Origin: a virus
Strand: one strand, 5' to 3'
IMG/VR virus record: IMGVR_UViG_3300022929_000037
Location: 1 to 54,131 of that record
Length of the DNA stretch: 54,131 bases
In this document: piece by piece, positions 4,976-29,562 of the stretch
Layout: each line of letters starts with the position of its first letter
Position numbering within the stretch: position 1 is the stretch's first letter
Notes under the pieces: generated by a model
Database searches by the model: none
Told to the model about the DNA's origin: nothing
The model's input: the letters and a program-made list of their open reading frames with translations, nothing else
Position numbers and translations under genes: made by a program

Positions 4976-5662
4976 ATGCAAGAAACTTTAATTACTTTAC
5001 TTGACAATGAGTTTGTTAAAATAAGTTACTTTGATAAAAAATCAGACGACGTTGTCCTGTCATTTTCTAGCACTCCAAGGCTGGCCCAGGGAGAAGAGAT
5101 TGCTGAAGAGCAGTTTGTTGGAACTCTCAGCAATAACAATGTAACTGGCATTTTTATCATAGACAAGCAGTCCTCTTATGGCAACAAGATTAACTTTGGA
5201 GAAATTGCTGCTACCATAGCTCCCATTATTATTAATGCAGAGAGGGTCCACGCTGTTGGGTATTGCATGGGTGGTTTTTTGGCAATACTAATGTCTAAAG
5301 TAATTAGCCTACACTCTGTTGTTGCCATTACCCCGCAGTGGAGTATTCACCCAGACATCCTGCCTGAGTCTAGCTACCTAAGAGAATTTACAAATCGTAT
5401 AGATAGCTGGGAGGTCATAAGTTTAGAGAACAGCTTTAATGATACAACGAAATATTTTATATTTAATAGTAATGATGTTGACGATCAGTATCAAATTCAA
5501 TTTTTCCCAGAACAAGAAAACCTAGAGATCTTTGAGTTTGGTCCAGCCACGGGTCACGACCTGCCAGAGGCTCTGGGTGGCAAGCTAGAAGAATTAATGT
5601 TTGCGTGTATTAATGATAACCCTAAAATGGTAGAAGATTTTATAGACTCTTATTATAAATAA
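4976..5662 (+). CDS. Alpha/beta-hydrolase-like protein with Cys nucleophile, 228 aa
   Basis: The nucleophile elbow near residue 96 reads GYCMGG, that is G-x-C-x-G-G with Cys where most esterases have Ser, as in dienelactone hydrolase. A late His (TGHDLP) could complete the triad. The preceding helix-strand (ERVHAVGY) fits the fold. No signal peptide. It stands alone on the plus strand and runs tail-to-tail into the GT60-like gene (23-nt overlap). Substrate unknown; an ester bond on a glycan is possible given the neighbours. Confidence 0.55.
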   Translation: MQETLITLLDNEFVKISYFDKKSDDVVLSFSSTPRLAQGEEIAEEQFVGTLSNNNVTGIFIIDKQSSYGNKINFGEIAATIAPIIINAERVHAVGYCMGGFLAILMSKVISLHSVVAITPQWSIHPDILPESSYLREFTNRIDSWEVISLENSFNDTTKYFIFNSNDVDDQYQIQFFPEQENLEIFEFGPATGHDLPEALGGKLEELMFACINDNPKMVEDFIDSYYK

Positions 5663-6560
5663 TATTATTATAATAATTTCTTGCAATGATGTATTTGTCT
5701 TCCTGGCCCTGAAGTGACCAGAACTCTTCTGGTGTCATCTCAGCATCTTTAATTGCATACTTAGAGTAATCATTATAAATAATTGCTAGGGATAACTCGT
5801 GCCATGTTGCTGGATGCTCTGTTACGGCTGCAGATTTAAAACGATTCTGTTTATCTTCTACACCTTTCCAGTTAGTAAGCTGGTATTGCTGATCTGCCTG
5901 CCAGGTTATTTTTTTATTGAGCTGAAAAACTCTATACCCCGACATCAATAGTCTAAAGGATATCATAAAAATTTCTAGTGAGGTTTGTGAATATGGGTCT
6001 AATCCTACAAGCTCTATAAATGATTTAGGAAAAAGCATTTGTCCTGCTCTAGCAAAATAAATCTCGTGATATTCTGAGTAAGATTTTGACTTACCATTTA
6101 TTGGTTTTGGATGAACAATAGAATAATCATTCACAGGATAATCTTCTAGAACCATATCCCAACTTGATGTCATTATGCCATCTTCATACGGCTCAAGGGG
6201 CAGGATTGCTACCTTGTCTGTTCGATATCTGCCAGATATCTCTTTATAGGCTTTTATAAGAGTAGAGTCCCAGCCAGGTGCAAACTGATAATGAGAGTCA
6301 AGCTGCAAGTAAAAGTCTTCTCCCTGGTAAAGCTCCTTTGAAATGTTATATCTAACCTTTACAATTCCTGGACGAGTATCTGGGTGGTAGCTTATGGTCC
6401 TTACATTACTAAATTCAGACAGGTCTGGCTCTTCGTAATACTGAAGGGCAACCCCAAAGGTAATTCTTTCTGGCTTTATTGCATTATAAAGGGCAGACTT
6501 TATTGTGTCAATTAGTTGAGGATCATTGTAGGCTGCAATTGATATGAATATTGTTTTCAT
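5640..6560 (-). CDS. GT60-family-like GlcNAc transferase, 306 aa
   Basis: Resembles the family of Skp1-hydroxyproline GlcNAc transferases (GlcNAc family, CAZy GT60). It has a GT-A start (FISIAAYNDPQL), PERITFGVALQYYEE, a TRPGIVKVRYNIS block and the metal/sugar site LQLDSHYQFAPGWD near residue 100. The start at ATG 6560 directly follows the stop of the prolyl-hydroxylase-like gene, so the two are one transcription unit. In Skp1 modification a P4H and a GT60 enzyme act in sequence; the same pair here suggests hydroxy-residue glycosylation. The acceptor is unknown. Confidence 0.75.
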   Translation of the reverse strand: MKTIFISIAAYNDPQLIDTIKSALYNAIKPERITFGVALQYYEEPDLSEFSNVRTISYHPDTRPGIVKVRYNISKELYQGEDFYLQLDSHYQFAPGWDSTLIKAYKEISGRYRTDKVAILPLEPYEDGIMTSSWDMVLEDYPVNDYSIVHPKPINGKSKSYSEYHEIYFARAGQMLFPKSFIELVGLDPYSQTSLEIFMISFRLLMSGYRVFQLNKKITWQADQQYQLTNWKGVEDKQNRFKSAAVTEHPATWHELSLAIIYNDYSKYAIKDAEMTPEEFWSLQGQEDKYIIARNYYNNIIYNKSL

Positions 6561-6561
6561 T

Positions 6562-7200
6562 TTACTCAAAGAACAACACGTCTGACGGGTTCTTCCCCTC
6601 TTCGCTAGGCACATACTCTAGAGTATCTTCTACATCAAACTGAAAAAACATAGGCATTGTATATCTGTGACCCGACTTTAGCTCTAGAATTTGGTGACGG
6701 TATCTGCTTGGAAACAAAAGCATGTCTCCAGCTTTAGGCTTTATCGTTAAATCAAACTCTGGAAATGATATCTCTCCACCCGAATAGTCGTCAGTAAGGT
6801 AGGATAGTGATGTGATATTATACTGATAGAATCTTTCTACAATGGCTGGTCCCCCAGAGGGAGTCTCTGAGTCGCTATGTACAGGCATTGAGCTACCAGT
6901 AAGCATGCCCCATTTTGTTAGGTGAGCTGGATTACGTGTGTATCCTTTAAACGGAATACCATACTTTTCTCCATAGTGCATAAGCACTTCAGCCATGGCG
7001 GCATTTTCGTAAAAAATTAGCAGAGCTCGTATTTCATGGTCAACATCCTCTTGTTTAAAGGTGCCATCATCATCAAGACTATCTAAATAATTAACAAATG
7101 TCTCTATATCTTTAGGGTGGACAAAGTTTTTTAGATGTGTAATCCCATCTTTAGAGTAGCCAATTTTATTATACTGCTCCATATAATTTTCATAGCTCAT
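6562..7200 (-). CDS. Prolyl-4-hydroxylase-like 2OG-Fe(II) oxygenase, 212 aa
   Basis: A P4Hc-type dioxygenase: it uses 2-oxoglutarate, O2 and Fe(II) to hydroxylate a substrate. Ligands are visible as H-x-D (MPVHSDSE), the distal His (YRHQILEL) and the 2OG-binding Arg (GHRYTMPMFF). The strand SYLTDDYSGGEISFPEF and the segment IKPKAGDMLLFPS are typical of the family. The ATG lies 6 nt after TATAAT, so it has its own leaderless promoter inside the operon. It abuts the GT60-like gene downstream. Confidence 0.8.
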   Translation of the reverse strand: MSYENYMEQYNKIGYSKDGITHLKNFVHPKDIETFVNYLDSLDDDGTFKQEDVDHEIRALLIFYENAAMAEVLMHYGEKYGIPFKGYTRNPAHLTKWGMLTGSSMPVHSDSETPSGGPAIVERFYQYNITSLSYLTDDYSGGEISFPEFDLTIKPKAGDMLLFPSRYRHQILELKSGHRYTMPMFFQFDVEDTLEYVPSEEGKNPSDVLFFE

Positions 7201-7206
7201 AAGTCT

Positions 7207-7212
7207 ATTATA
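7207..7212 (-). promoter_or_regulatory. Leaderless -10 box upstream of the P4H-like gene
   Basis: Minus strand TATAAT 6 nt before ATG 7200, immediately after the thyX stop. It would let the hydroxylase/GT60 pair be transcribed apart from the upstream sugar genes. Confidence 0.65.
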
Positions 7213-7902
7213 TCATTCCTCATAGAGCATGTTGATGGTTTCGGGGAATGCTTCTTTAGTTAGTTTAAGAACTGCCTTTGCATACTCTTGGATTTCCCAC
7301 TGTGCGTCATGCTCAATACGCTGGTCAAGGAACGTAAGGATGCCCTGGAGCGAGACAGTCCACCTCCAACGCACATACATTCCATAAGCAGGCAGGAATA
7401 GCCTAGCGATCTCTGGTGCAATGCCGTCGTCCATTGCTTCGTGGTAGACCTGTGTGCCAGCCACGACAAGCTCACAAAGCTGCTCAAAATACTTCTGGCC
7501 AATCTCTATATCTACTGGCTCTCCAGAACCCTGCTTGCTGTTTTCTGGCTTGCTACGCCATTCATGTGGTAGTGGTATATAAAACTTCTCATCTTCAGTA
7601 ATGTAACGCCTAGAAGATTCATTCCAGCCATTCTGCTCATCTACATGCGTAGAGGCTACTGCATACTTCCACCATTGCCTTGCAACAAATAGTGGAGCAT
7701 AGACCTCGAAGGTAGCTGCTGCATGTCTGAAAGGACTTGTGTGCTGTTCTCTCAGCAAAAACTTTAATAGTTTTGCATCTCTTTCCTCAAACTCGCTTTT
7801 CTCCTTATCGTAAGACACCCTGGCAGCATTTACTACCGCCAGATCGTCTCCTAGCGTGTCTACGAGGCGTACGTAGCCCTCATCTAGAACATTCTCTTTC
7901 AA
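7213..7902 (-). CDS. thyX: Flavin-dependent thymidylate synthase ThyX, atypical signature
   Basis: A 229-aa ThyX: it makes dTMP from dUMP with FAD and methylene-tetrahydrofolate. HTSPFRHAAATFEVYAPLFV and the C-terminal SLQGILTFLDQRIEHDAQWEIQ match the fold. The usual RHRxxSxNExSxRY signature is altered: the RHR position reads WKY (RQWWKYAVAS) and an insertion precedes the NESSRRY part. The start is TTG 7902 (GGAG seven bases upstream), overlapping the epimerase stop. Its place inside a sugar operon is unusual. Confidence 0.8.
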   Translation of the reverse strand: MKENVLDEGYVRLVDTLGDDLAVVNAARVSYDKEKSEFEERDAKLLKFLLREQHTSPFRHAAATFEVYAPLFVARQWWKYAVASTHVDEQNGWNESSRRYITEDEKFYIPLPHEWRSKPENSKQGSGEPVDIEIGQKYFEQLCELVVAGTQVYHEAMDDGIAPEIARLFLPAYGMYVRWRWTVSLQGILTFLDQRIEHDAQWEIQEYAKAVLKLTKEAFPETINMLYEE

Positions 7903-8828
7903 AGCATTTCTCCTATTATTTCATCGATTGTTTTGGTTGGCTTCCAACCAATATGTGTGTTAATCTTAGTAATGTCTGGCACTCTTCTAGAAACATCCTC
8001 AAATCCCTTGCCATATGCTATGTCATAGTCTATAAATTGTACCCCAGACATAGACCTAGTAATCTTAATGACTTGATCCGCTAGGGACAAGATTGATGTC
8101 TCTTCATTGCCACCAATGTTGTAGGTTTCTCCGAATCTACCACTTTGCGTTAGTGCATATATTGCAGCAGCTGTATCCTCGACATGGCAAAAGGACCTAG
8201 TCTGAAGTCCTGAGCCATATATGGAAATGTCTTGGCCAGATGTTGCCTGCTTAATAAATCTAGGCAACACCATTCCATATTCTGTGTTTTGATTAGGGCC
8301 AACTGTATTAAAGATACGACCAGTAATAAACTTTAAGCCATTATTTTTTGCATAGTGCGATGCCAAGGACTCACCCAAGGCCTTTGACTGTGCATACGTC
8401 CATCTGGGACTTGTTGGTGTGCCAAAGATACTGTCTGTATCCTCTGTAAATGGCACAGCCATATTCTTACCATAAACCTCTGAGGTTGAAGCAAAGAAAA
8501 CAGGCTTGTTAAAAGATGATGCTGTTCGAAATACCATGTCGGCATTGTTGACATTGTTGTGTATAATTTTTGGGCAATTGTCCATAGTATTGTGAACCCC
8601 AATGCTAGCAGCTAGATGAATAATATAGTCAACTTCCCTGGCCTCAGCAATAAATGACTCATAGTTTGCAATGTCAAATGGCATGAGTCTAGCACTAGTT
8701 CCAGCAAGATTATCTTTATTACCAGAAACAAGGCTGTCCATTATAACAACCTCGTGTGAGTTTTGCTCTAAAAGCTTAACAAGACTAGAGCCTATAAACC
8801 CTGCTCCACCTGTCACCAAGTATTTCAT
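7899..8828 (-). CDS. NAD-dependent nucleotide-sugar epimerase/dehydratase, 309 aa
   Basis: Extended SDR fold: Rossmann motif VTGGAGFIGS near residue 6, IIHLAAS, a serine region (FASTSEVYGK) and the catalytic YxxxK (YAQSK) near residue 140. GRIFNTVGPNQ and the IGGNEETS end fit UDP-sugar 4-epimerases and UDP-glucuronate decarboxylases; the exact substrate cannot be told. It overlaps the dehydrogenase gene by ATGA and thyX by 4 nt, so they are co-translated. It likely makes a sugar donor for the glycosyltransferases. Confidence 0.8.
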   Translation of the reverse strand: MKYLVTGGAGFIGSSLVKLLEQNSHEVVIMDSLVSGNKDNLAGTSARLMPFDIANYESFIAEAREVDYIIHLAASIGVHNTMDNCPKIIHNNVNNADMVFRTASSFNKPVFFASTSEVYGKNMAVPFTEDTDSIFGTPTSPRWTYAQSKALGESLASHYAKNNGLKFITGRIFNTVGPNQNTEYGMVLPRFIKQATSGQDISIYGSGLQTRSFCHVEDTAAAIYALTQSGRFGETYNIGGNEETSILSLADQVIKITRSMSGVQFIDYDIAYGKGFEDVSRRVPDITKINTHIGWKPTKTIDEIIGEML

Positions 8829-9928
8829 ATTCCCTCGCTTACGTCTAGAAGATCAACATCGTATGTTGGTTGTGCACTATGCTTTATGACAATTACGCCT
8901 AGGTCTGTTTTAGGTTTAAGTTTTGAAGAATTATCGTATACATCAATGCCATATGCCTCAACGCCTAGGTCAGTCAGCTTGTCAAGAACTTTTTGTCCAA
9001 CAGAGTTGTTCTGACTTGGATGATTGGGTTTATAAGACATTCCTATAACTGCAATTCTTTTATTCTTTATACTGCCAAGAGTTTTTTCAATCTTGCTCAC
9101 AATACGATCTGGTGCACTATCGTTATAAGCCAATGCTTGCTCTATGAGTGGGACACTTCCTATGCTACTAAGAAGATAGGCTGGGTCCACTGGTATGCAA
9201 TCTCCTCCAATACCAGCACTTGGATAGAAAGGCATAAAACCAAATGGCTTTGTCGCTGCAAGGCTTACTACGCTAGAAGTATCTATCCCATTGTTTTGGC
9301 ATGCCTCATTAAATTGATTAATTAGGGCAATGTTGACTAACCTATAAGAGTTTTCTAGAAGCTTTGCGGCTTCTGCTTGTTCCAGGGTCTCGGCTAGCTT
9401 AGTGGTAGACACCAATGTCTGATAAAACTCATTAGCTATAGCCCTGTCTACGGATGTTAGGCCTGCAACTATTCTGCTAATATCAGAATACTTGAGGGAG
9501 CTGCCTGGGTTAATTCTTTCTGGAACATGAGCTAAATAAAAGGTATCTCTGTTGGTAAGTTTATTAAGCATTGGTAGAATCTTTGTTCTAGTAAAGCCCA
9601 GACCTACTGTAGACTCAATAACAACTAATGTCCTAGAACAGATAAAGGGCCCAGCACCCTCGATGGCAGACTTGATGTTAGAATAGTCTGGTTTATTATT
9701 TTTAAGATTGGTTGGTACAGCAAAGACAACAACGTCACAACACTGCAGATCAGAGTATTTAGTTGTTGCCTTATAGTTTTTATCAGCAAACTTTTTATTT
9801 AGTTGTTGTGTCAGTTTTTGGTTAGTATCAATACCATGCACTTCATAGCCAGCATCTAGGCAGGCGGTAGCAAGCTCTTGACCCACATACCCCTGACCCA
9901 CAATGCCAACCGACTTAAAACTATACAA
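8825..9928 (-). CDS. Nucleotide-sugar 6-dehydrogenase, 367 aa
   Basis: UDP-glucose/UDP-N-acetyl-hexosamine dehydrogenase superfamily: oxidises the C6 of a nucleotide sugar to a uronate with NAD. The N-terminal GIVGQGYVGQE binds NAD. The catalytic Cys sits in AGIGGDCIPVDPAYL, closer to the WecC/WbpA (acetamido-sugar) pattern than to UDP-Glc dehydrogenases. The C-terminal domain has IAVIGMSYKPNH. TTG start at 9928 with GAAGG about ten bases upstream; the NAD motif starts at residue 8. It feeds the epimerase next door. Confidence 0.8.
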   Translation of the reverse strand: MYSFKSVGIVGQGYVGQELATACLDAGYEVHGIDTNQKLTQQLNKKFADKNYKATTKYSDLQCCDVVVFAVPTNLKNNKPDYSNIKSAIEGAGPFICSRTLVVIESTVGLGFTRTKILPMLNKLTNRDTFYLAHVPERINPGSSLKYSDISRIVAGLTSVDRAIANEFYQTLVSTTKLAETLEQAEAAKLLENSYRLVNIALINQFNEACQNNGIDTSSVVSLAATKPFGFMPFYPSAGIGGDCIPVDPAYLLSSIGSVPLIEQALAYNDSAPDRIVSKIEKTLGSIKNKRIAVIGMSYKPNHPSQNNSVGQKVLDKLTDLGVEAYGIDVYDNSSKLKPKTDLGVIVIKHSAQPTYDVDLLDVSEGI

Positions 9929-9931
9929 GTA

Positions 9932-10114
9932 TTAATAACCTTCCTCATGGGTTACGCCATGCTTGTCATCAATATACTTGTGTGCTTTACGCAATGCCCT
10001 GCTTCTTGCAAACACATAGGTTGCAAGAACAAACACACCATTCCAGAAAAACTCTGCAATAATATGCTCATACCCAAACATTACCTCAAGCAGATGCTCT
10101 ATTTCGTGTGCCAC
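9932..10114 (-). CDS. Small membrane protein, 60 aa
   Basis: GTG start with GGAAGG eight bases upstream, overlapping the end of the preceding gene. It has one hydrophobic segment (FFWNGVFVLATYVFA, about residues 22-37) flanked by a charged N-terminus and a basic cytoplasmic side (RSRALRKAHKYI). Function unknown; it heads directly into the sugar operon. Confidence 0.6.
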   Translation of the reverse strand: MAHEIEHLLEVMFGYEHIIAEFFWNGVFVLATYVFARSRALRKAHKYIDDKHGVTHEEGY

Positions 10115-10298: not shown

Positions 10299-10304
10299 TC
10301 AACC

Positions 10305-10333: not shown

Positions 10334-10337
10334 GCAC

Positions 10338-12575: not shown

Positions 12576-12581
12576 ATTATA
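12576..12581 (-). promoter_or_regulatory. Leaderless -10 box for the holin-like gene
   Basis: Minus strand TATAAT 7 nt before ATG 12568, at the very end of the upstream methylase gene. Confidence 0.6.
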
Positions 12582-13284
12582 ACATAGATTCTGGGTGTAT
12601 GACCAGGGTAAATGGATCTGGAAAATGCTTTGAATGCTTAGAGAAAAGCTCTGATGCCTTGCATCTATAGGTTCTGGCATTCAACTCTCCCATATTGTGC
12701 ATTATTGTAGACATTCTGTCAGGGCCAAAGGTATCAGATATGCTATCAAATAAGGGCTTAGATTTTTCTAAATTATCTACCACTATAAGCAGTATAGTCG
12801 GCATCTCTAGAGAAATATTTTTCAAAAGGGCCAGCCTATCTGAATAGTCTTCCCACCTAACCAAAATCCCACCAAATACAAATGCATTGCCATCTATCCC
12901 AGACAATATTGTTGCTGACATCACAGCCGAAATGTTTGGTGTTATGTCTACCTGTATATTTTTTTCTACTAACAAGGCTATAACCCCAGCATATGGATCT
13001 GTTATATTCGGAAAACCTTCATCACTTACGATTACTATATTTTGATTAATATTATTTAATATAATATCTAGTGCATCGTAATCATCCAAGAAATGGTCCT
13101 CGCCCACAGATTGAATTGTTGAAATAATTCTTTTACCTTCTATGTCTATCCCAAGCTTATCCATCACTTCTGTAAAACGATCATGTGTTTCACAAAATAC
13201 TATGTCGGCATTTGCAAATAGCTCAACTTGTTCTTGAGAAAAGGCTTTAGGATATAGGCTAAATGATGATACGGTTATGCTCAT
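12577..13284 (-). CDS. RsmI-like tetrapyrrole-methylase-fold SAM methyltransferase, copy B
   Basis: A 235-aa paralogue of the 10338-11033 protein, with the same landmarks: ADIVFCETHD, VIVSDEGFPNITDPYAGVI, ITPNISAVMSATILSGI and the shared C-terminus (ARTYRCKASEL, PFTLVIHP). Both copies lack the N-terminal P-I-G-N motif of cellular RsmI. The start overlaps the carbamoyltransferase stop by ATGA, so it is translated with it. RNA 2'-O-methylation is the family's known job; here the substrate is open. Confidence 0.7.
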   Translation of the reverse strand: MSITVSSFSLYPKAFSQEQVELFANADIVFCETHDRFTEVMDKLGIDIEGKRIISTIQSVGEDHFLDDYDALDIILNNINQNIVIVSDEGFPNITDPYAGVIALLVEKNIQVDITPNISAVMSATILSGIDGNAFVFGGILVRWEDYSDRLALLKNISLEMPTILLIVVDNLEKSKPLFDSISDTFGPDRMSTIMHNMGELNARTYRCKASELFSKHSKHFPDPFTLVIHPESML

Positions 13285-14906
13285 AGCAAAATCACCCTTT
13301 TAATTTCTGGGCAATACAAATATTTAATTCCAGATTCTTTACAAGTTCTGATTGCATCGTCCATATTGCGAACAAGCGTGTCTCCTGCTAGATTAAAAGA
13401 TGTATTCAACAACATAGGAACTCCAGCAATAATTCCAAACTCTCTTATAAGGTGGTAGTAGTGAGCATTATCCTTGATAGATACTGTTTGAATTCGTGAT
13501 GTTCCATCATTATGCTGAAGTGCTGGAACTATATCTTTTTTATCTTTAAGAGTTTCTACGGCATACATCATATGTGGACTGTCGCTCAGGGTCGCTAGGT
13601 CAAACCACTCGCTTGCCTTATTAACCAATACACTTCCAGCAAATGGCCTAAAGAATTCTCTCTTTTTAATTTTGTTAACCTTGTCTCTACCATCTGGGTC
13701 TCTTGGGTCATAGAGTATTGACCTATTCCCCAGAGCCCTAGGTCCAGACTCTTCTTTGCCCTGGTAGAGTGCTACAATGTTTTGGTCTGCTAGTAGTTGA
13801 GCAACATCCTTGTAGGACACCTCCTTTGACTCTACACCAATTGGGATATCGTAGTTTGCGTGCTCCCCCAAGTAAAGTAAGTTAATTGGCTTTACAGATT
13901 TTTCAGTAAGCTTTGTGTATAGGTATTGTGCAGCACCTATAGAAGTTCCAGAGTCACTAGAGTTTGGCTCAACATAAAAGTTAATGTCTGGAAATTCTTT
14001 TAAATATTTATAATTATTTACACAATTTAGGAAGTATCCACCACTTAGACATATATTTGTGTTGCCCCAAAATGACAGTGCTTTACGAATAAGGCGAGCG
14101 GTAAACTCAAATGAGTCTGTTTGTGTCCTATAAGCAAGGTCCTCGTTAGATAGGTCTGAGTCTAGAATTGCTGGGTTTGCACCCTCTTCATCGAAAGCCC
14201 GTGGGTGTTCTGGGTTATCAGAGCCGTAGGCAGAGAGGCCCATGACCTTTCCTGCATTATGATAAGAGCCAAATATCTTAATACCTACAGCTGAGAATAG
14301 CTTTCCCAAGCTCATATTTCTGTCATATACAGTATAGTTGCAACCAATATCAGATAGGTCTTGGGAGCATTTCGAAAAATATGGCATGTGGCCTAGCTCC
14401 TCCTGGTATTCCTCATACTGATCTTTGTCAAACTGCTTGATAAGGTTCTTGTGAGTTGCAATAATGTTTGTTTGACGGGCAATATACATTGTTTCAGACT
14501 CTCTATATAAAGTTTCTTCGTCATAGAACGCCTGCCCAGCACCGTCAATAACCAGGACAGCTGCTTCGTCAAACTTGGAGTTATTAAATGCAACAGTTGC
14601 ATGGGCCAGATGGTGGTCTTTCATCCAATGTGCTTTTGGCATGCTGGGGCTTTCAAAATGTTTTTGTTTGCCACAAGCAAATAGCAATGTATTTAGCAGC
14701 ATCTCGGCATTGAGATCATATGGAAATGCCCCAACAAAAATTACATGGTTAGGCTCTAGTTCAATTCCTTTTGCAAAGCTATGCAAAACACCAGTAGTAT
14801 GTTTTTGATGAGTAACACGCTCCTCTTCTTGGTAAAAGATTATCTTACCATCCTCAATTACGCACACACTGCCGTCGTGCGATAGGTTGACACCCATTAT
14901 TTTCAT
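13281..14906 (-). CDS. Carbamoyltransferase, NodU/TobZ/CmcH family, 541 aa
   Basis: These enzymes use carbamoyl phosphate and ATP to O-carbamoylate an acceptor such as a sugar. The Kae1-like N-terminal domain starts MKIMGVNLSHDGSVCVIEDG; the metal-binding motif is HHLAHA near residue 98; then LSGGYFLNCVNN; the YrdC-like C-terminal domain has GPRALGNRSILYDPRDP and DGTSRIQTVS. Full length for the family. It overlaps the PIG-L gene by ATGA. One of two such genes here. Likely acceptor: a sugar on a phage or host glycan; a modified DNA base is an alternative. Confidence 0.85.
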   Translation of the reverse strand: MKIMGVNLSHDGSVCVIEDGKIIFYQEEERVTHQKHTTGVLHSFAKGIELEPNHVIFVGAFPYDLNAEMLLNTLLFACGKQKHFESPSMPKAHWMKDHHLAHATVAFNNSKFDEAAVLVIDGAGQAFYDEETLYRESETMYIARQTNIIATHKNLIKQFDKDQYEEYQEELGHMPYFSKCSQDLSDIGCNYTVYDRNMSLGKLFSAVGIKIFGSYHNAGKVMGLSAYGSDNPEHPRAFDEEGANPAILDSDLSNEDLAYRTQTDSFEFTARLIRKALSFWGNTNICLSGGYFLNCVNNYKYLKEFPDINFYVEPNSSDSGTSIGAAQYLYTKLTEKSVKPINLLYLGEHANYDIPIGVESKEVSYKDVAQLLADQNIVALYQGKEESGPRALGNRSILYDPRDPDGRDKVNKIKKREFFRPFAGSVLVNKASEWFDLATLSDSPHMMYAVETLKDKKDIVPALQHNDGTSRIQTVSIKDNAHYYHLIREFGIIAGVPMLLNTSFNLAGDTLVRNMDDAIRTCKESGIKYLYCPEIKRVILL

Positions 14907-15528: not shown

Positions 15529-15780
15529 ATGTCAATATTTGCAGAGTTTCAAGCATACAAAGAAAAGCTGGGGTGCCATGACTGCAAGGTTATGTATCCC
15601 CACTACATTTTAGAGTTTGACCACAGAGAGGGCAAGCTCAAAATTGATAACGTTAATCGTGTTTTGAAAAGGTATGGCAGAGATGCTGCATGGGAAGAAG
15701 CAAGGAAGTGTGACGTTGTGTGCTCAAACTGTCACAAGCAGCGAACATATGAAAGAGAGATAGCACGTGTTAATAGATGA
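15529..15780 (+). CDS. HNH-type nuclease-like protein, 83 aa
   Basis: Start ATG 15529 just after the -10 box. It has the HNH layout with zinc Cys pairs: C-x2-C (GCHDCK) near residue 16, the catalytic-type EFDHREG near residue 30, and CSNCHKQRTYE near residue 68. Small HNH proteins in phages are homing or packaging-associated nucleases. The last 14 nt overlap the 2OG oxygenase gene. It is the only nuclease in this glyco region, so free-standing homing behaviour is possible. Confidence 0.75.
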   Translation: MSIFAEFQAYKEKLGCHDCKVMYPHYILEFDHREGKLKIDNVNRVLKRYGRDAAWEEARKCDVVCSNCHKQRTYEREIARVNR

Positions 15781-16336
15781 TAATTTTTTAAGTGAGCAGT
15801 CAATCCTGGATGTTTATAGCAGGGTTCTAGACAACGGCCATGACATACCCTGGACTCTAGCCTATAGCACTAACATGAAGTCAGACCCTGAAGGCTATGT
15901 TAAAGAGACTTCTGCAGTAAAGGAGTCTTACCAATTTGCGGCTGGGCTTATGCCTAATACCGTTGCGTATAATTATTTTTGGAAAGTGTTTCATGAGTTT
16001 GCCACAAAGCATAACATCTCATATACTAGGATACTAAGGGCTAAGCTTAACTGGCTTCCCAGATCAGCTGATGCTAGCCCAGAAGATTACCATACGCCAC
16101 ACGTTGACTCAGATGAAGAGCATAAAGTATTCCTTTATTACCTAAACAGCTCCGATGGCGATACCTTTTTCTTTAACGAAACATACCCCCTCGAAGAAGG
16201 AAGTGAGCTGACCCTAAACCAAAGGGTAAGTCCAAAGGCTGGCAGGGGCGTAGTTTTTGATGGAAACATCTATCATGCGTCCTCATCCCCGATTGATTCA
16301 AATCACAGGTGTATTTTAAATATAGACTTTATATAA
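15767..16336 (+). CDS. 2OG-Fe(II) oxygenase superfamily protein, 189 aa
   Basis: GTG start inside the HNH gene end. Iron ligands appear as H-x-D (TPHVDSDEE) and a late His (IYHASSSP), with the 2OG Arg in HRCILNIDFI. The core KVFLYYLNSSDGDTFFF and PKAGRGVVFDGN are typical of phage 2OG oxygenases. It is a different subgroup from the P4H-like ones next to glycosyltransferases. Substrate unknown. Confidence 0.75.
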   Translation: MLIDDNFLSEQSILDVYSRVLDNGHDIPWTLAYSTNMKSDPEGYVKETSAVKESYQFAAGLMPNTVAYNYFWKVFHEFATKHNISYTRILRAKLNWLPRSADASPEDYHTPHVDSDEEHKVFLYYLNSSDGDTFFFNETYPLEEGSELTLNQRVSPKAGRGVVFDGNIYHASSSPIDSNHRCILNIDFI

Positions 16337-22325: not shown

Positions 22326-22991
22326 CTATTCTGTGCCGTCAGACATGCGTGGATTGCTTAGGTGGTGATACCAGTGTGGCATTGCATACCTGGTTCCCTC
22401 AGTTACTGGCATAATCTCATGAACGTATAGGAAGTTAGAAGGAAAAAAGACTATGCTTCCAGCTTCTGGCTTAATCTTGGTATTTGATTGCCTAAACTCT
22501 ATCTCACCACCAACGTAGTTATCGTTTAGGTAGCTAACTGTTGAGATGAGCCTGCTGCTTATACCTAGATCTTGGTGTGCAGGAAGATGGCCCTTGTCGT
22601 ATGCCTCGTATCTAAGGATACCGTCCATAGGCTCCTCTGACTTTACTGCATTTGCTGCAAACGGATATAGCTGTGTTGAGTAGTGGTGAAAAGCTTTATC
22701 TAGTGAGCCATACAATGCATCTGCAATTTGCAAAAGTTCTTGACGATAGTAGTCATGCTCTTGAATCTGGTCATGCCTCCAAATAAAAAATTTGTAATTA
22801 AATGGCTTTTCCATGTGGCTATCGTGCCATGGCCTCCAGTCATTAACTGCTGTAAAATATCCCTCATGCTCATTTTGTTTAAACCGTTCAGCAAGCTTAT
22901 CTACCAAGTCTACTATATACTCAGTATCTGGAATGATATTTTTGTAATATACTAGTCCAAGATCCTTTACTTCAAACTCTATTTGATCCAT
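22326..22991 (-). CDS. Prolyl-4-hydroxylase-like 2OG-Fe(II) oxygenase, 221 aa
   Basis: Second P4H-like enzyme. H-x-D in LPAHQDLG near residue 137, distal His in YVHEIMP, 2OG Arg in GTRYAMPHWY; the strand SYLNDNYVGGEIEF and the turn IKPEAGSIVFFPSNF match the 6562-7200 protein closely, so the two are paralogues. GGAG four bases before the ATG. It overlaps the GT60-like gene by 20 nt, giving the second hydroxylase/GT60 pair. Confidence 0.8.
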   Translation of the reverse strand: MDQIEFEVKDLGLVYYKNIIPDTEYIVDLVDKLAERFKQNEHEGYFTAVNDWRPWHDSHMEKPFNYKFFIWRHDQIQEHDYYRQELLQIADALYGSLDKAFHHYSTQLYPFAANAVKSEEPMDGILRYEAYDKGHLPAHQDLGISSRLISTVSYLNDNYVGGEIEFRQSNTKIKPEAGSIVFFPSNFLYVHEIMPVTEGTRYAMPHWYHHLSNPRMSDGTE

Positions 22992-23970
22992 TCTTCTCCT
23001 GTTTTGCTAGATATTCTATTATATCAGAAAAGGGCTGATAATATTTTCTAGCACTGACTATTGACATATAGTGATCGTGCATTCCTATTGCCTTATAAAA
23101 GTCTTCTGGTGATAATTCTGAGTCAATCTTATAGGGTCCAAGGTTATATAAAAAGAAACGTATAGTCTCATAAAGAACTTCTGGACTGTCTTCTACTGCA
23201 GCAAATTGTTTATTTTTTTCAAACTTAAATGGATTCCAGTTATGATATGCGTATACCCTCTTATATGATCTGTAGGCCTCCCAGCCCCTCATAAATATTA
23301 AATAAGACTGTAGTGGCTCGTCGTTAAACATTTTTACATCTTCTATAAAGAATAAGTTATGCTCAAAATATTCCTTGGGAGCAAAGAACAGGTCCATCGA
23401 TGTATAGTATGTTTTGACAAAGTCTTGGTGTGGAGATTTTACTAAGGGAGAACTTACATTAGTTAAAAAGTCGAGCTCTCCGTTTGGCTCTATAGAGTAA
23501 TCAAACTGCGTTATGTGGTGCAGTGCCACCTCTCCATCGCTTCTACAATTGCATGGCTCTGTTACTGGAGGCTCGCTGTTTGACATTTGACAAGAGATTA
23601 CGACCTTATCGTTACCAGTTTTTAGCCTTAGCTCATTATAGTCGTCAAGAATAAAAACATCCCATCCGCTAGTAAATGTCATGTGAGCATCTATAGATAA
23701 CACATAGTCATAATTTGTTGACAGCGATGCTAGGTCATTTCTTACCTGAATTAGTCCTGGCCTTTCTGGGCCATAATCAATTATAGTAAGATTGTTGTAT
23801 ATAGATAAGTCTAGGTTGATACGCTGATGCTGAAGCCCTACAGCAAAATATATCCTTTCTGGATACGTTGCTTTGTCTATTGCTCCCTGTATTGTTCCAA
23901 TTAGTGATGGATCTTCGTATGATGGTATGATGACCAATATTGTTTTATTATTTGATAACCTTTGTTCCAT
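22972..23970 (-). CDS. GT60-family-like GlcNAc transferase, 332 aa
   Basis: Paralogue of the 5640-6560 protein: LVIIPSYEDPSLIGTI near residue 12, PERIYFAVGLQHQ, RPGLIQVRNDLASL and the sugar/metal site LSIDAHMTFTSGWD near residue 95. A Cys pair (EPCNCRSDGE) is special to this copy. Sits between a carbamoyltransferase (23-nt overlap) and the P4H-like gene (20-nt overlap), so all three are co-translated. Expected reaction: GlcNAc or similar onto a hydroxylated residue. Confidence 0.75.
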   Translation of the reverse strand: MEQRLSNNKTILVIIPSYEDPSLIGTIQGAIDKATYPERIYFAVGLQHQRINLDLSIYNNLTIIDYGPERPGLIQVRNDLASLSTNYDYVLSIDAHMTFTSGWDVFILDDYNELRLKTGNDKVVISCQMSNSEPPVTEPCNCRSDGEVALHHITQFDYSIEPNGELDFLTNVSSPLVKSPHQDFVKTYYTSMDLFFAPKEYFEHNLFFIEDVKMFNDEPLQSYLIFMRGWEAYRSYKRVYAYHNWNPFKFEKNKQFAAVEDSPEVLYETIRFFLYNLGPYKIDSELSPEDFYKAIGMHDHYMSIVSARKYYQPFSDIIEYLAKQEKNGSNRV

Positions 23971-25387
23971 ATTCTTGTTCCCATTTTATAACGTCCGCCT
24001 CATCATTAAGAAGTGGCTGGCCCTTAATATTAAGGCTAGTGTTTAGTAGTACTGGAACCCCAGTCTCTTCATAAAAACGTCTTAGGAGGGCATACAGGCC
24101 TGGATGCTGACGCTTATTTACGGTCTGAACCCTAGAAGTTCCATCCGCATGAACCACAGAAGGTATTTCACTTGGCCTCTTGCATACAAAAGTGTATTGC
24201 ATATATGGTGATGCTGCCTTCATATCAAACCAGTCATTAGCAAATTCCTCTAGAACCACTGGGGCAAATGGCCTAAACAGCTCTCTCTTCTTAATCTTAT
24301 TGACCTTATCCTTAATGTTTGGATCTCGTGGGTCTGCCAGGATACTTCTGTTGCCTAGTGCTCTTGGACCATATTCTGCCCTACCGTATACAACTGGTGC
24401 AACTCCATCAGATAGGATTGCTGCTAGTGCCTGCTCTACTGGATACTTCCTCTTAGGCATATCATATCCCAAGTATGGTCCCCTCCAGGTAAGGTGCTTT
24501 CCATAGGCTGCAGCTGCTGCTCCCAAAGAGCTTCCTGCATCTCCAGGGTTTGGCATAATCCAGACATCAGAGAACATGTCCCATAGCTTCGTATTAGCAG
24601 AAGCGTTTAGTGCACAGCCACCCATAAACACTAGGTTATGCTTGCCAGTCTTATTAACTGCAAACTCCATAAACTCCATAAGCCTTTGCTCATAGACCCT
24701 TTGAACTGCTGCTGCAATATCAAACTTATTTCTGTCATTGACCTCTTCATTCCAATCAAGAATGCCTTTGTGAAAGTTATATCTTTGACCCTTAATGCTG
24801 TCAAAGTATGAGTTTACCTTGCTGTAGTACTTGTTTGCTTTGCCATATGCTGCCATGCCCATCATGATATACTCTTCTTCGTTTGGCTTGAGCCCAAGCA
24901 GCTGTGTGAATGCAGAGTAGAAAAGACCAAAGCTAAATGGATAATTCTTTTTGTATACCTGCTTAATTCTATCGCCTTCACCAACCCAAATGGTAGAGGT
25001 ATTCCATTCTCCTATGGCATCCAATACCACAATTGTAGCATCCTGGAATCTGCTTGTGTAATAGCCTGCAGCTGCATGTGAGTAGTGGTGCTTAAATGTT
25101 TTTACTGGGAGATCTTTGAGCTCAGGATGATTGATATACCTTGGGCTGTCTCCCCCAAAGCCCCCACTAATTGCAATTCTACTTTTCTTTAATAGTGGCT
25201 TTTCATAATAGGCAATCATGTCTGGCTTGCCATATCTCAATGCATCTTCAATTAGTTTATCATTAGTAAACCAATCATTCTTTTCTTTACTATACCGCTC
25301 AGCGTGCCCAGCAAAAAGAATATTGCCGTTCTCAATTAGCGACACTGAAGCATCATGTGTTGTCTCATTAATTCCAAGAATTTTCAT
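23948..25387 (-). CDS. Second NodU/TobZ-type carbamoyltransferase, 479 aa
   Basis: Same family as 13281-14906 but shorter and clearly diverged. MKILGINETTHDASVSLIENG, metal motif HHYSHAAAGYY near residue 100, GGCALNASANTK and the C-terminal GPRALGNRSILADPRDP and DGTSRVQTVN are present, so both domains are intact. TAATG coupling to a 27-aa peptide gene upstream. It heads the GT60/P4H set, suggesting the transferred sugar or the acceptor is carbamoylated. Confidence 0.85.
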   Translation of the reverse strand: MKILGINETTHDASVSLIENGNILFAGHAERYSKEKNDWFTNDKLIEDALRYGKPDMIAYYEKPLLKKSRIAISGGFGGDSPRYINHPELKDLPVKTFKHHYSHAAAGYYTSRFQDATIVVLDAIGEWNTSTIWVGEGDRIKQVYKKNYPFSFGLFYSAFTQLLGLKPNEEEYIMMGMAAYGKANKYYSKVNSYFDSIKGQRYNFHKGILDWNEEVNDRNKFDIAAAVQRVYEQRLMEFMEFAVNKTGKHNLVFMGGCALNASANTKLWDMFSDVWIMPNPGDAGSSLGAAAAAYGKHLTWRGPYLGYDMPKRKYPVEQALAAILSDGVAPVVYGRAEYGPRALGNRSILADPRDPNIKDKVNKIKKRELFRPFAPVVLEEFANDWFDMKAASPYMQYTFVCKRPSEIPSVVHADGTSRVQTVNKRQHPGLYALLRRFYEETGVPVLLNTSLNIKGQPLLNDEADVIKWEQEYGTKVIK

Positions 25388-25470
25388 TAATAGATATACT
25401 TTCTAGGCTTAAGTGCTTTACGATTTTTCCACTTCCAAAATCGAAATTTTATTTGCTTAATTATTTTCAT
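25387..25470 (-). CDS. Strongly basic mini-peptide, 27 aa
   Basis: A 27-codon frame starting inside the end of the SGNH gene and stopping in a TAATG overlap with the carbamoyltransferase. It starts MKIIKQIKFRFWKWKNRK and is almost entirely basic and aromatic. It may be a real peptide (membrane or nucleic-acid active) or a leader that couples translation of the two large genes. No ribosome site is clear. Confidence 0.4.
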   Translation of the reverse strand: MKIIKQIKFRFWKWKNRKALKPRKYIY

Positions 25471-26269
25471 GGTATTTATTATACATTAATTCTGCAGCAT
25501 ATTTATGGAATCCAGTTCCCCAGTGGGCACCATCTTCTGCATAAAAATAGTTTGGGCTGCCATCGTCATTATCATATAGGTAGCTCTCCAGATTAAGATC
25601 GTCGAAGTTATAAAAAGTTTTAAAGTTAAACTTATTGAATATATCCCTCATTGCTGGAGAATTGTATGATGTTGATACAAGGTTTATGCCATATAATTCC
25701 ATAAGCTTTTCAAACATTGAGTATGTCTCATACAGATAAGGGGTCATGCTGTCGATTATTTCTAGAACATCCTGCGTAAAGCTAGTATTATGATATGAAT
25801 ATTTATCTGGGTTAACTACTGCATCGTAGTAGCCGTCTAATTTTTGGTGCAGCCTGATTCCCCTAAAGACATCTGGAAACATTATAAATATTGTATCTGG
25901 CTTGCCATAAGTATCTATATATCTCAGAATTAAGGATATGATGCCGTTAAAGCTTGCACCTTCCCTACCAATATTTATTGCATGTATTTCTTTGCCTATG
26001 TCTTCAGATAGCTTACTGGCTAACAGATTAGGCCAAATATTACTGTCATCGCTTATTCCAGTTCCAAAGGTATTGGAGCATCCAGCAAACAGCATGTGCA
26101 CTTTGCTGGGGTTGACAACAAACTCTTCTGACCTATACCTTAATGAGTTCAGGACAAGGCTGCTATCTCCTTGATCATTTTTAGGCATCTTACCGTCAAA
26201 GCCATACAGGCGATCCTGCTCAGTAGGACCAAACCTGTCATCGAAGTTTTTAAGATAGTTGTAGTTCAT
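25457..26269 (-). CDS. SGNH/GDSL-like hydrolase, 270 aa (copy 1)
   Basis: Ser hydrolase-like fold: block I LFAGCSNTFGTG near residue 60 (G-x-S), block II NIGREGASFNG, block III FIMFPD, and a late D-x2-H (DGAHWG) for the catalytic Asp/His. SGNH enzymes remove or transfer acyl groups on sugars or lipids. One of three tandem paralogues (25457, 26273, 27120). Cytosolic by sequence. Likely acts on an O-acylated sugar; not proven. Confidence 0.65.
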   Translation of the reverse strand: MNYNYLKNFDDRFGPTEQDRLYGFDGKMPKNDQGDSSLVLNSLRYRSEEFVVNPSKVHMLFAGCSNTFGTGISDDSNIWPNLLASKLSEDIGKEIHAINIGREGASFNGIISLILRYIDTYGKPDTIFIMFPDVFRGIRLHQKLDGYYDAVVNPDKYSYHNTSFTQDVLEIIDSMTPYLYETYSMFEKLMELYGINLVSTSYNSPAMRDIFNKFNFKTFYNFDDLNLESYLYDNDDGSPNYFYAEDGAHWGTGFHKYAAELMYNKYHENN

Positions 26270-26272
26270 TAG

Positions 26273-27133
26273 CTAGCTGCCCTTCCATGATTCAGCCCCC
26301 GTAAGCAACTCGTAGAATTTGCTTGCATAAAAATCTTGTTCTGCAATACCTGGATGGGAGTCATCCATAGCCTTAAGCATAATATCTTTATATTTACCAT
26401 TATACACTAAGCCAAACCTATAGAGGTGATCTAGAAACATGTCCTCATCTATTTGATATAAATATTTTATTTTATTTCTGCCATCATCTTTGCTTGCCCT
26501 AGCGACAGAGAAAGATCTGTCCCATGTCATTGCAAAGGCATTAATGTTATTGTTTTCTATAAAGCGAATTGCAGCCTCTACCCCGTTCCACATGTCCCTT
26601 TCTGGCTCTGGAAAAAGAATAAATAAGTAGTCTGGTTTGCCGTATCGAATAATATACTCATCGATTAAATTGATAATATCTGACATAGATGCGGAAGGCT
26701 TTCCTAGATTAAAATATCCTGATGTCTTGGTGCTATGGCTTATAGACGTATAAAGTTTGTGTGCCCATAAGAATTCTTCTGGCATAGAATCTCCAAAAGT
26801 TAAAGAACATCCAGCAAAAAGAATATGCTTTCCAGAGTGGTCTGCAGTAAACTCATCACAACGAAAGCCCTCAGAGTTAATTTTATAAAAATCTTTGCTA
26901 CTTAGCCCTAGCTTATTTAAATATTTTTTAGTTACAAAAAATCCATAGGAGTCTACCCAAGGACGTGAAACAGACTTATGAAATCGTTTTTCTGAGTTTT
27001 CTTTTTCATTTAGGCCAAGCTCCGTGAGCTCTGCTAGGATCAGTTCTTTGACCTGATCAAACTCTTTGTGGTATTTTTCATGGCGGCTCATGTAAACTTC
27101 ATTAAGCTTCTTTGGCAAGCTAAATAGGTCCAT
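26273..27133 (-). CDS. SGNH/GDSL-like hydrolase, 286 aa (copy 2)
   Basis: Start ATG 27133, with GGAGA seven bases upstream. Block I is ILFAGCSLTFGDS near residue 100, block II NLGKPSASMSD, block III LFILFPEPERD, and the catalytic end DDSHPGIAEQDFY (D-x2-H-P-G). It shares the sequence LNSEGFRCDEF-type lead-in with copy 3, so copies 2 and 3 are the closer pair. Overlaps copy 3's end by 14 nt. Confidence 0.65.
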   Translation of the reverse strand: MDLFSLPKKLNEVYMSRHEKYHKEFDQVKELILAELTELGLNEKENSEKRFHKSVSRPWVDSYGFFVTKKYLNKLGLSSKDFYKINSEGFRCDEFTADHSGKHILFAGCSLTFGDSMPEEFLWAHKLYTSISHSTKTSGYFNLGKPSASMSDIINLIDEYIIRYGKPDYLFILFPEPERDMWNGVEAAIRFIENNNINAFAMTWDRSFSVARASKDDGRNKIKYLYQIDEDMFLDHLYRFGLVYNGKYKDIMLKAMDDSHPGIAEQDFYASKFYELLTGAESWKGS

Positions 27134-28097
27134 GCAAATCTCTCCAAATATTATATGCAAAGTTATAATAAAAGTCGTGTTCTGCAATTCCTGGGTGAAC
27201 AATATCGAATGCCCTCAACATAAATTTTGCAAATTTATTATTCTTGTTAATCTTTATGAAGGTCATCATGTGGGCCTGGAGTTCTTTTTCAGCAAATTGA
27301 TATAGAGTATTATTCGTCTGCTGTCTTGGGTCAAGCCAGGGGCTTTGGTAAAACACATCATTAAAATTAGGATTTTGATCAAGGTACGCACCGCCCTTGA
27401 AAGAGTGTATGTCCCAAGAAAACATTATAAGTTTGATATTGTTTGTCTCTGCATATTGAATAAGAGCATTGTGCATTGGAAGAATTACAGAGTGCAGACT
27501 CTCTATTGGAATGCCTGCGTCAATTGACCTCTCTAGGTCTGGGAAATTAATAAAGATATATTCTGGATTTCCGTATAGCTCAATATACTTAAAGACTTGA
27601 TAATAAATATCTAAATGGTTAAATCCTGGTCCAGCAACATTGTAATATCCGCTGGTAGGAACTTGCTTACTAATAGATTTATATACCATTTTAGACCAGG
27701 TTAAGTCAATGGGTAGCCCGTCACCAAAAGTTATGGAGCATCCAGCAAACAAAATATGAAGTTTGTCGTGTGAGTCGGAGAACTCGTCGCACCTTAGCCC
27801 GTCTGAGTTTAAGTGGTAAAAATTATCTATTGTCTCGCCAAAGGTCTCAAGATTCTTTTTAGTAAAGTAAAGATTGAATGGAGACATTAAGGCTGGCATT
27901 AGCTTTGAGTATTTCTGAGACTTACTCTCATGGACTTTGCTAAGCGGAAAATTTGTTTCTATGTAGTCAAAAAGCTCTTCCGCTTTATCAAACCATTCCG
28001 TGTAGTCTTCTCCATATTGCTGGTAAAACTCCAGAGTTGACTGGGAAGGATTGAAACCACTTAAATCTTTATACGCCTTGCTCATGTTTTTGAGCAT
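27120..28097 (-). CDS. SGNH/GDSL-like hydrolase, 325 aa (copy 3)
   Basis: Block I ILFAGCSITFGDG, block II NVAGPGFNHLD, block III FINFPDLERS and end FDIVHPGIAEHDFY (Asp/His pair). Closest to copy 2. ATG 28097 (or 28085) overlaps the P4H-like gene end by 17-29 nt. Three adjacent hydrolase copies suggest different acyl positions or partners, or simply recent duplication. Confidence 0.65.
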   Translation of the reverse strand: MLKNMSKAYKDLSGFNPSQSTLEFYQQYGEDYTEWFDKAEELFDYIETNFPLSKVHESKSQKYSKLMPALMSPFNLYFTKKNLETFGETIDNFYHLNSDGLRCDEFSDSHDKLHILFAGCSITFGDGLPIDLTWSKMVYKSISKQVPTSGYYNVAGPGFNHLDIYYQVFKYIELYGNPEYIFINFPDLERSIDAGIPIESLHSVILPMHNALIQYAETNNIKLIMFSWDIHSFKGGAYLDQNPNFNDVFYQSPWLDPRQQTNNTLYQFAEKELQAHMMTFIKINKNNKFAKFMLRAFDIVHPGIAEHDFYYNFAYNIWRDLHGPI

Positions 28098-28707
28098 GTG
28101 CTACCGCATATGGGTGACGCATGCACTCCCAATCTAACTGATTGCTTAGCTGTTTCCCACCAGTAAAGTCTGGATCTGCATGGTTTGGGATGCTGGTGTG
28201 CATATACAAACAAGTATGCCTTCTTCCAGACGTTACTTCCGTAATTCCATGGATGTGTTCAGAGCCAGCACTTGGGAAGAATACTGCAGAATATTTGCGT
28301 GGCTTATACTCAAAACCCTGATTCGGGAAATAAATAACTCCACCCTCATACTCGCTTGGGTCATTAAGATAGATTATTGTGCTCCACTCAATAAAAGGTT
28401 CTGGATCTTGTGCATCCATGTGTAGTCCACCAGAGCTTCCAGCTGTCCACATAGAGCCAAATGCCTTAAAGACATATATTGGATTAACAAAACCGTTAAG
28501 CTCTTTATGAACCTCGTTTGACTTATCTCCATACTTTACAAGCAAGCTCATAATTCTATCATTATATGGAAATGCTGTTCCTCCAAACCTTTCCTCATAA
28601 TATTCTGGATACGGGTTTGTCTCAGATGGTGACATCTGCTCCTCGATCATTACAGCAGCATCTTCTGGTGTAATAAAGTTATCAATTATATGTATACGAT
28701 GCGTCAT
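28069..28707 (-). CDS. Prolyl-4-hydroxylase-like 2OG-Fe(II) oxygenase, 212 aa
   Basis: Third P4H-like enzyme. H-x-D in LHMDAQDP near residue 97 (HMD), distal His in EHIHGITEV and 2OG Arg in SGRRHTCLYM; IIYLNDPSEYEGGVIYFP and the turn YKPRKYSAVFFPS fit the P4Hc domain. GGAGGA three bases before the ATG and TATAAT at 28723-28728. The glycosyltransferase gene at 28732 lies 24 bp upstream: third hydroxylase/GT pair. Confidence 0.8.
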   Translation of the reverse strand: MTHRIHIIDNFITPEDAAVMIEEQMSPSETNPYPEYYEERFGGTAFPYNDRIMSLLVKYGDKSNEVHKELNGFVNPIYVFKAFGSMWTAGSSGGLHMDAQDPEPFIEWSTIIYLNDPSEYEGGVIYFPNQGFEYKPRKYSAVFFPSAGSEHIHGITEVTSGRRHTCLYMHTSIPNHADPDFTGGKQLSNQLDWECMRHPYAVAHAQKHEQGV

Positions 28708-28722
28708 ACTTCCTCCTCTACT

Positions 28723-28728
28723 ATTATA
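28723..28728 (-). promoter_or_regulatory. -10 box for the third P4H-like gene
   Basis: Minus strand TATAAT in the 24-bp gap after the glycosyltransferase, followed by GGAGGA and ATG 28707. Confidence 0.5.
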
Positions 28729-28731
28729 GCA

Positions 28732-29562
28732 CTAATAGATTGCCTTAACTGATCCAATAAACCTTTCTCCACCAACGTCTACAATCTTTAAATCATAAGG
28801 GTCATAGGGAACATCATCTTGCTGGTAAAAAATTGGCTTAATTAAATCTGTATCAATGCCTACGCACGTTCCCCAGGCCTTTCCAATCTCAGACTTTAAG
28901 GATTCTACAACAGAGTTATATTTATGCTCTAAAGAAAACGGAACATATAGCTCTTCCAATGGCCTGAATTCTTGTATATCATCAATAATATCTGATGGCG
29001 GGGACCATAAATCAATTTGCTTCTTGAAAATATCTAAAGATAAGTATTCATTTTCTCCGTAAAACTTAAGGTGCACTGGATAGTCTAGAGACTTTATTAA
29101 GTTGCTAGAAGAAAACAATAGCTCACTATTGGCATAAGATGTTTTTTCAAAAGTTTCTGATGTTTCATAACTGGCCTCAAGAAAATGCTTATCTTTAATG
29201 CTTAGCGATGGCTTACCATATCCAGAAATTATTCCAGGATTTTCCTTAAAAAATTCAACCAGCCTGGAGTCCCAGCCTTCTGATAAATAAATCCTGTCTG
29301 ATAGTATTAAGGTATACTCAGAGTGTATTTCTGGCATATGAATTGCGGTCTGCTTGAAGCTACACGGACTATTGAGTTTGTCCCAAAAAATATGAGAGTA
29401 TTCAAGGTTATTTAGATGAGAAAACTTATCTTTTCTAAGCATTGGGTGCTGATCATACACAGTAACGTGAACCGAACCAGATGAGGTATTAAACACATTC
29501 TCTACTATATCGAGAAGTTTTGGGTTTTTATAAGAATATATAACTACACTAATACTAATCAT
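28732..29562 (-). CDS. Glycosyltransferase, divergent GT60/GT2-like, 276 aa
   Basis: GT-A type start (ISISVVIYSYKNPKLLDIV). The landmark TLILSDRIYLSEGWDSRL near residue 95 lines up with LQLDSHYQFAPGWD and LSIDAHMTFTSGWD of the two GT60-like proteins, but the D-x-H is degenerate (SDR). VTVYDQHP also matches the region after strand 2. So it is a diverged relative, active or not. Its start overlaps the DUF6065-like gene, and it precedes the third P4H-like gene by 24 bp. Confidence 0.6.
   Translation of the reverse strand: MISISVVIYSYKNPKLLDIVENVFNTSSGSVHVTVYDQHPMLRKDKFSHLNNLEYSHIFWDKLNSPCSFKQTAIHMPEIHSEYTLILSDRIYLSEGWDSRLVEFFKENPGIISGYGKPSLSIKDKHFLEASYETSETFEKTSYANSELLFSSSNLIKSLDYPVHLKFYGENEYLSLDIFKKQIDLWSPPSDIIDDIQEFRPLEELYVPFSLEHKYNSVVESLKSEIGKAWGTCVGIDTDLIKPIFYQQDDVPYDPYDLKIVDVGGERFIGSVKAIY

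Follow-up and report, generated by a model that had tools for sequence, protein, structure and literature searches.

Three oxygenase-glycosyltransferase gene pairs in an actinophage-like contig

The IMG/VR contig IMGVR_UViG_3300022929_000037, analyzed whole (54,131 bases; the window), is actinophage-like and carries three pairs of neighboring genes, each consisting of a prolyl 4-hydroxylase (P4H)-type 2-oxoglutarate (2OG)-Fe(II) oxygenase (OX1 to OX3) and a glycosyltransferase (GT; GT1 to GT3), which is GT60-like in the first two pairs. Five of the six proteins could be placed in a family, and both the active-site motifs and the conserved, recurrent pairing are established. All six open reading frames (ORFs) are present at the positions given by a first-pass annotation made from the sequence alone, and all lie on the minus strand.

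5640..6560, minus strand: GT1, GT60-like glycosyltransferase (PF11397, 1.2e-18; D88-S-H90 ... WD)
6562..7200, minus strand: OX1, P4H-type 2OG-Fe(II) oxygenase, upstream of GT1 (PF13640, 4.3e-9; H108, D110, H169, R179)
22326..22991, minus strand: OX2, P4H-type oxygenase (PF13640, 9.5e-16; H139, D141, H191, R201)
22972..23970, minus strand: GT2, GT60-like glycosyltransferase (PF11397, 1.6e-8; D94-A-H96)
28069..28707, minus strand: OX3, P4H-type oxygenase (PF13640, 2.2e-7; H96, D98, H153, R163)
28732..29562, minus strand: GT3, a divergent paralogue that lacks DxH (found with an iterated HMM; in a clade of syntenic GT3 genes adjoining oxygenases)

The spacing within the pairs agrees with the annotation, which had described it as abutting, a 20-nt overlap, and a 24-bp gap. 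In pair 1, 1 nt separates the OX1 stop from the ATG at 6560, and an in-frame ATG upstream is an alternative start that would extend GT1 to 6614. The OX2 and GT2 ORFs overlap by 20 nt, and OX3 lies downstream of GT3 across a 24-nt gap. Transcription runs from oxygenase to GT in pair 1 and from GT to oxygenase in pairs 2 and 3, which belong to one gene string (29562 to 22326) in the order GT3-OX3-three ORFs-carbamoyltransferase-GT2-OX2. The landmark that the transferases were said to share, degenerate in the third, was likewise recovered (QLDSHYQFAPGWD, SIDAHMTFTSGWD, and the degenerate ILSDRIYLSEGWD).

The DnaE-type DNA polymerase of the contig shows 54 to 57% identity with those of Streptomyces phages, and NrdA/NrdB, UvsX, a primase, a terminase, and ThyX are also among its products. 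At least 599 IMG/VR contigs are related to the window. The contig is probably a fragment, because its relatives reach 112 kb and contain a tail-gene block that is absent here.

The paired oxygenases are of the prolyl hydroxylase type

OX1, OX2, and OX3 all score above the curated cutoff of PF13640, and the HxD...H...R site is intact in each. The 2OG-binding residue is Lys in collagen P4H and Arg in PHD2, PKHD, and LH; it is Arg in all three phage oxygenases, which are therefore PHD-like rather than collagen-P4H-like. The top PDB sequence matches of OX2 are prolyl hydroxylases. Structures were predicted for OX1 and GT1. The fold matches of the OX1 model (pLDDT 86.6) include the collagen prolyl hydroxylase of PBCV-1 (TMt 0.69), PHD2, bacterial P4Hs, PKHD/PiuC-type oxygenases, and LH3; they span prolyl, lysyl, and PiuC-type enzymes. 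One further ORF, 45446-46234, was pulled in by the iterated oxygenase profile; it has only a weak cupin match and was excluded from the profile behind the statistics given below.

An oxygenase next to a GT could also serve the hypermodification of phage DNA, in which a base is hydroxylated and then glycosylated, as in the TET/JBP plus GT systems. Base J and TET-phage systems follow this oxygenase-plus-GT logic, DNA-acting phage GTs are known (Pyle 2024, as cited in PMC12619734), and the OX2 sequence weakly resembles that of a Tet-like dioxygenase (E 0.05). We consider this reading very improbable: the Pfam and fold matches are P4H-type, with no match of the paired oxygenases to the TET/JBP Pfam families up to E 1, the top fold matches of GT1 are polypeptide transferases, no DNA methyltransferase was found among the profiled subset of contig ORFs, and the pair also occurs in SAR86 chromosomes and in bacterial fusion proteins.

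GT1 and GT2 are GT60-like, and GT3 is a divergent paralogue

GT1 and GT2 match PF11397, Pfam's Skp1-type GlcNAc-transferase family, with 68 and 35 bits, respectively, against a cutoff of 21. The DxH that replaces DxD in both is invariant across 30 aligned members. The GT60 and GT27 families have DxH and polypeptide O-glycosylation in common; members of GT60 are reported for both prokaryotes and protists, and the family also glycosylates Ser/Thr (PMC7185993). The 44 best PDB matches of the GT1 model (pLDDT 91.5) are GT27 polypeptide GalNAc-transferases (Foldseek, 1.8e-10 to PGANT9 and TgGalNAc-T3, TM about 0.55), followed by KfiA and TarP. The predicted GT-A fold is thus close to GT27 and points to polypeptide acceptors. 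The two models show prolyl-hydroxylase-like (OX1) and polypeptide-GalNAc-transferase-like (GT1) folds. In BFVD, the GT1 model resembles uncharacterized "Glycosyltransferase, GlcNAc" proteins of uncultured phages. A phmmer search of GT1 against PDB sequences gave no match, and a scan of viral contigs with this single protein recovered no relatives.

GT3 has no match in Pfam or PHROG. It was retrieved by the iterated profile, and in the GT tree it is nested among its syntenic relatives, two of which match PF11397 weakly (the L135 copy with 21.5 bits and the G058 copy with 24.5 bits). Its clade comprises the oxygenase-adjoining GTs of G012, G016, G019, G024, G033, L196, L208, and L239. GT3 lacks DxH, and its orthologues have SPD or SDD at that place wherever the motif is readable. 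Judged by its sequence and gene order, GT3 is a syntenic paralogue that has lost DxH, and we do not file it as a GT60 enzyme. The GT60-like assignment of the first-pass annotation thus stands for GT1 and GT2 and is doubtful for GT3, which has neither the DxH signature nor a Pfam match.

The pairing is conserved in related phages

In a sample of 50 related contigs, PF11397 was matched at E <= 0.001 in 6 and PF13640 in 17. The adjacency test covered those six PF11397 contigs and the window, with ORFs as gene proxies and 1000 shuffles. An oxygenase is the immediate same-strand neighbor of 11 of the 18 GTs (shuffled mean, 1.1; maximum, 5). The adjacency is not due to chance, and the pairing is kept in related phages; its loss there would have counted against the annotation. 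The GT3-OX3(-OX)-...-carbamoyltransferase-GT2 string is conserved, lying after three conserved ORFs, two of which belong to phrog_7084 in the window, and before an M23-LysM peptidase gene. An OX-GT pair also follows ThyX, close to a nucleotide-sugar epimerase gene, at a second site in the window, L181, L187, G016, and G019. Between the window and L187, identity at this site is only about 27 to 30% for the oxygenase as well as for the GT, as if both genes changed together. A NodU/CmcH-type carbamoyltransferase adjoins an oxygenase or a GT in L134, L135, L141, L208, and L239.

Each enzyme might instead have a target of its own, with adjacency arising by shuffling within a hypervariable and loosely assembled cassette of genes that tailor proteins and glycans. 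The partner order varies from pair to pair, many GTs stand alone, and contigs that lack a GT60 can have as many as eight or nine oxygenases, all of which would fit such shuffling. We regard it as distinctly unlikely, given that adjacency in the relatives lies far above the shuffles, that the OX and GT ORFs of pairs often overlap by short stretches, that the partners codiverge (Mantel r 0.73; 0 of 2000 permutations), and that bacteria have fused and divergently arranged pairs.

The pairing in other viruses and in bacteria

In a wider viral scan, outside the close relatives, 17 of 81 GT60-like genes adjoin an oxygenase, compared with 5.1 expected and a maximum of 13 in shuffles. Many GT60-like genes in other viruses are found in tandem copies or near carbamoyltransferases without an oxygenase, and in Xanthomonas phage XacN1, too, a carbamoyl transferase comes after a GT; across this wide set, strict GT-carbamoyltransferase adjacency does not exceed chance. 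In many loci within L197 to L259, GT60-like genes encoding about 420 aa are arranged in tandem and overlap by a few nucleotides, often with a carbamoyltransferase nearby and without an oxygenase.

A genome scan with a tighter GT alignment found 127 relatives. A P4H-type oxygenase gene and a GT60-like gene are divergently adjacent at 27 loci (e.g., L273), almost all of them in SAR86 chromosomes and mostly within about 70 nt of each other. In four Alphaproteobacteria (L275, L295, L324, and L335), one protein of 1,313 (incomplete) to 2,452 residues fuses two 2OG domains to between two and four GT domains; the two fusion proteins scanned with Pfam reached 661 to 663 bits for PF11397 and 78 to 79 bits for PF13640. 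In the GT tree, at least eight changes of the "paired" label are forced on well-supported branches, which indicates that the pairing was gained or lost repeatedly.

Neighboring genes and a possible glycan pathway

The following genes surround the pairs or lie elsewhere in the window.

7213-7902, minus strand: ThyX, in the neighborhood of pair 1 (Pfam and PHROG; first gene of the block 7213..9928)
7899-8828, minus strand: nucleotide-sugar epimerase, same neighborhood (Pfam and PHROG)
8825-9928, minus strand: UDP-sugar dehydrogenase-like, same neighborhood (Pfam and PHROG)
13281..14906, minus strand: second carbamoyltransferase, outside the pairs (PF16861, 1.9e-54)
15767..16336, plus strand: possible fourth 2OG oxygenase, unpaired (PF13640, 2.9e-4, under the cutoff)
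23948..25387, minus strand: NodU/CmcH-type carbamoyltransferase in the string from GT3 to OX2 (PF16861, 1e-53; PF02543, 1.7e-40)
25457-26269, 26273-27202, and 27120-28097 (block 25457..28097), minus strand: three ORFs with FAGCSxTFG-like and D-x-x-HPG or D-x-x-HWG-like motifs
29555-30310, minus strand: phrog_7084 (PHROG), upstream of GT3
30310-31035, minus strand: phrog_7084 (PHROG), upstream of GT3
31022-31699, minus strand: unassigned ORF, upstream of GT3 (last of the block 29555..31699)

The ThyX, epimerase, and dehydrogenase-like genes have a similar arrangement in L181. The three ORFs of the GT3-to-OX2 string have no significant match in Pfam or PHROG; from the motifs in their translations, they are possibly SGNH hydrolases or acyltransferases. 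The order of the three ORFs upstream of GT3, two of which match phrog_7084 at 5e-37 and 1e-43, is the same in G012, G016, and G033. Tandem phrog_7084 genes (DUF6065-like), as at 29555-31035, are recurrent neighbors of oxygenases in the relatives. The window also encodes a PIG-L-like deacetylase (Pfam). Two related proteins (10338-11033 and 12577-13284) match PF00590, the tetrapyrrole-methylase family, barely over the cutoff and would be unusual cargo.

These neighbors could mean that both enzymes work in a cell-surface or capsular glycan pathway, modifying host surface glycans or producing small sugar derivatives together with the epimerase, the dehydrogenase, the carbamoyltransferase, and the PIG-L-like deacetylase. 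The epimerase and UDP-sugar dehydrogenase genes adjoin pair 1, the PIG-L-like and carbamoyltransferase genes lie in the same window, and KfiA and TarP, whose acceptors are polymers, come second among the GT1 fold matches. Such a pathway would also suit NodU/CmcH-type carbamoyltransferases, whose substrates are small molecules or sugars. On the other side, the top GT1 matches are polypeptide transferases, proteins are the main substrates of P4H/PHD-type oxygenases, and the oxygenases of related phages adjoin tail genes. We therefore hold this explanation to be unlikely.

A proposed pathway of hydroxylation and glycosylation of phage proteins

Our preferred reading, in which we place moderate confidence, is that the pairs form a phage-encoded pathway of protein hydroxylation plus glycosylation that acts most likely on the phage's own exposed tail or fiber proteins; the shared substrate, the polypeptide acceptor, the virion target, the residue, and the sugar are what we infer. 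The P4H-type oxygenase would hydroxylate side chains of a protein, with proline as the first candidate and Lys, Asp, or Asn as possible alternatives. The retaining GT60-type transferase would then add a sugar of the N-acetylhexosamine type to the new hydroxyl or to Ser/Thr of the same protein, and the carbamoyltransferase and other tailoring genes of the locus may further decorate this sugar.

Of the conceivable targets, the virion is the most probable, since the tail-gene blocks of related phages contain oxygenases of this group. In the tail-gene region of G010, G018, G019, G033, G041, and G043 (e.g., L171 and L149), the gene of an approximately 175-aa 2OG oxygenase precedes a conserved 1.2-kaa gene by exactly 18 nt. 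The 1.2-kaa protein has no significant family match, and its gene is present without the oxygenase in other relatives. In L143 (G031), L142 (G014), and L144 (G023), several 2OG oxygenases stand in a row together with phrog_7084/DUF6065 genes, and each contig has eight or nine such oxygenases; these cassettes adjoin fn3 and Mtd_N tail-fiber genes, and no GT60 was found in those contigs.

Several points weigh against the proposed pathway. The tail-adjacent oxygenases differ from the GT-paired ones, which makes the argument for a virion target indirect, and the oxygenase TM-scores of 0.5 to 0.7 do not fix the hydroxylated residue. The loss of DxH in the GT3 group means that GT3 may be inactive or may use another mechanism or function. 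Many phage GT60-like genes have no oxygenase neighbor, so that hydroxylation is no general prerequisite and the GT often works alone. The contigs of the adjacency test are partly related, fragmentary, and not independent, and the Mantel r drops to 0.32 when only those pairs of pairs are compared whose GT identity is under 35%; syntenic inheritance contributes to its value. Collagen-like or Pro-rich proteins were rejected as the unique substrate, as they also occur in contigs without a detected oxygenase.

Collagen-like G-x-y proteins with Y-position prolines occur in G016, G033, G041, G023, G010, and G014 and are apparently commoner alongside oxygenases. Y-position prolines make up roughly 16% of the triplets where oxygenases occur and roughly 2% where they do not; the hint is weak, as the contigs are fragments and G027, which has no oxygenase, is an exception.

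Relation to known systems and implications

The closest parallel is the Skp1 PhyA-Gnt1 system of Dictyostelium and Toxoplasma; in Toxoplasma, Gnt1 (GT60) requires earlier prolyl hydroxylation of Skp1 by PhyA (PMC6939170). A P4H-type oxygenase and a GT60 transferase are likewise both present and linked in the phage, and GT1 and GT2 match the Pfam family of the Skp1 transferases and have the DxH motif. In contrast, the phage has two or three divergent pairs, and its locus contains a carbamoyltransferase rather than PgtA and the later extension enzymes; a Skp1 homologue would not be expected in phages or bacteria. The GT60 Ser/Thr alpha-GlcNAc transferases of Trypanosoma cruzi and the GT27 ppGalNAc-transferases resemble the phage GTs in family, motif, and fold and have polypeptide acceptors, but they need no oxygenase, and GT27 enzymes have a lectin domain, for which GT1 (306 aa) is too short.

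The collagen lysyl hydroxylase-glycosyltransferases Mimivirus L230 and LH3 follow a hydroxylate-then-glycosylate logic in one protein, in the former case also a viral one, but with other GT families, lysine, collagen, and a eukaryotic virus. The bacterial P4Hs of Pseudomonas putida and Bacillus anthracis, which are among the OX1 fold matches, act on EF-Tu, a host protein, and we know of no transferase paired with them. Actinophage-encoded GTs also decorate mycobacteriophage virion proteins (Freeman 2023, cited in PMC12619734); the genes are different, and the system as cited there includes no hydroxylase. In open-access papers, we found no described phage system of the kind proposed here, in agreement with the first-pass annotation.

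A few protists are known to glycosylate cytoplasmic proteins in a hydroxylation-dependent manner with P4H and GT60 enzymes. We tentatively suggest, as a broader and rather doubtful possibility, that O-glycosylation linked to hydroxyproline or another hydroxy-amino acid exists in phages and bacteria and was recruited several times, that the protist Skp1 oxygen-sensing pathway descended from or with it, and that phage tails receive carbamoylated sugars in this way. The proposed pathway predicts hydroxylated glycopeptides on phage tails. If it is true, the version found in phages and bacteria would add a new type of virion decoration and supply compact enzyme pairs, and the protist pathway may have arisen from it.

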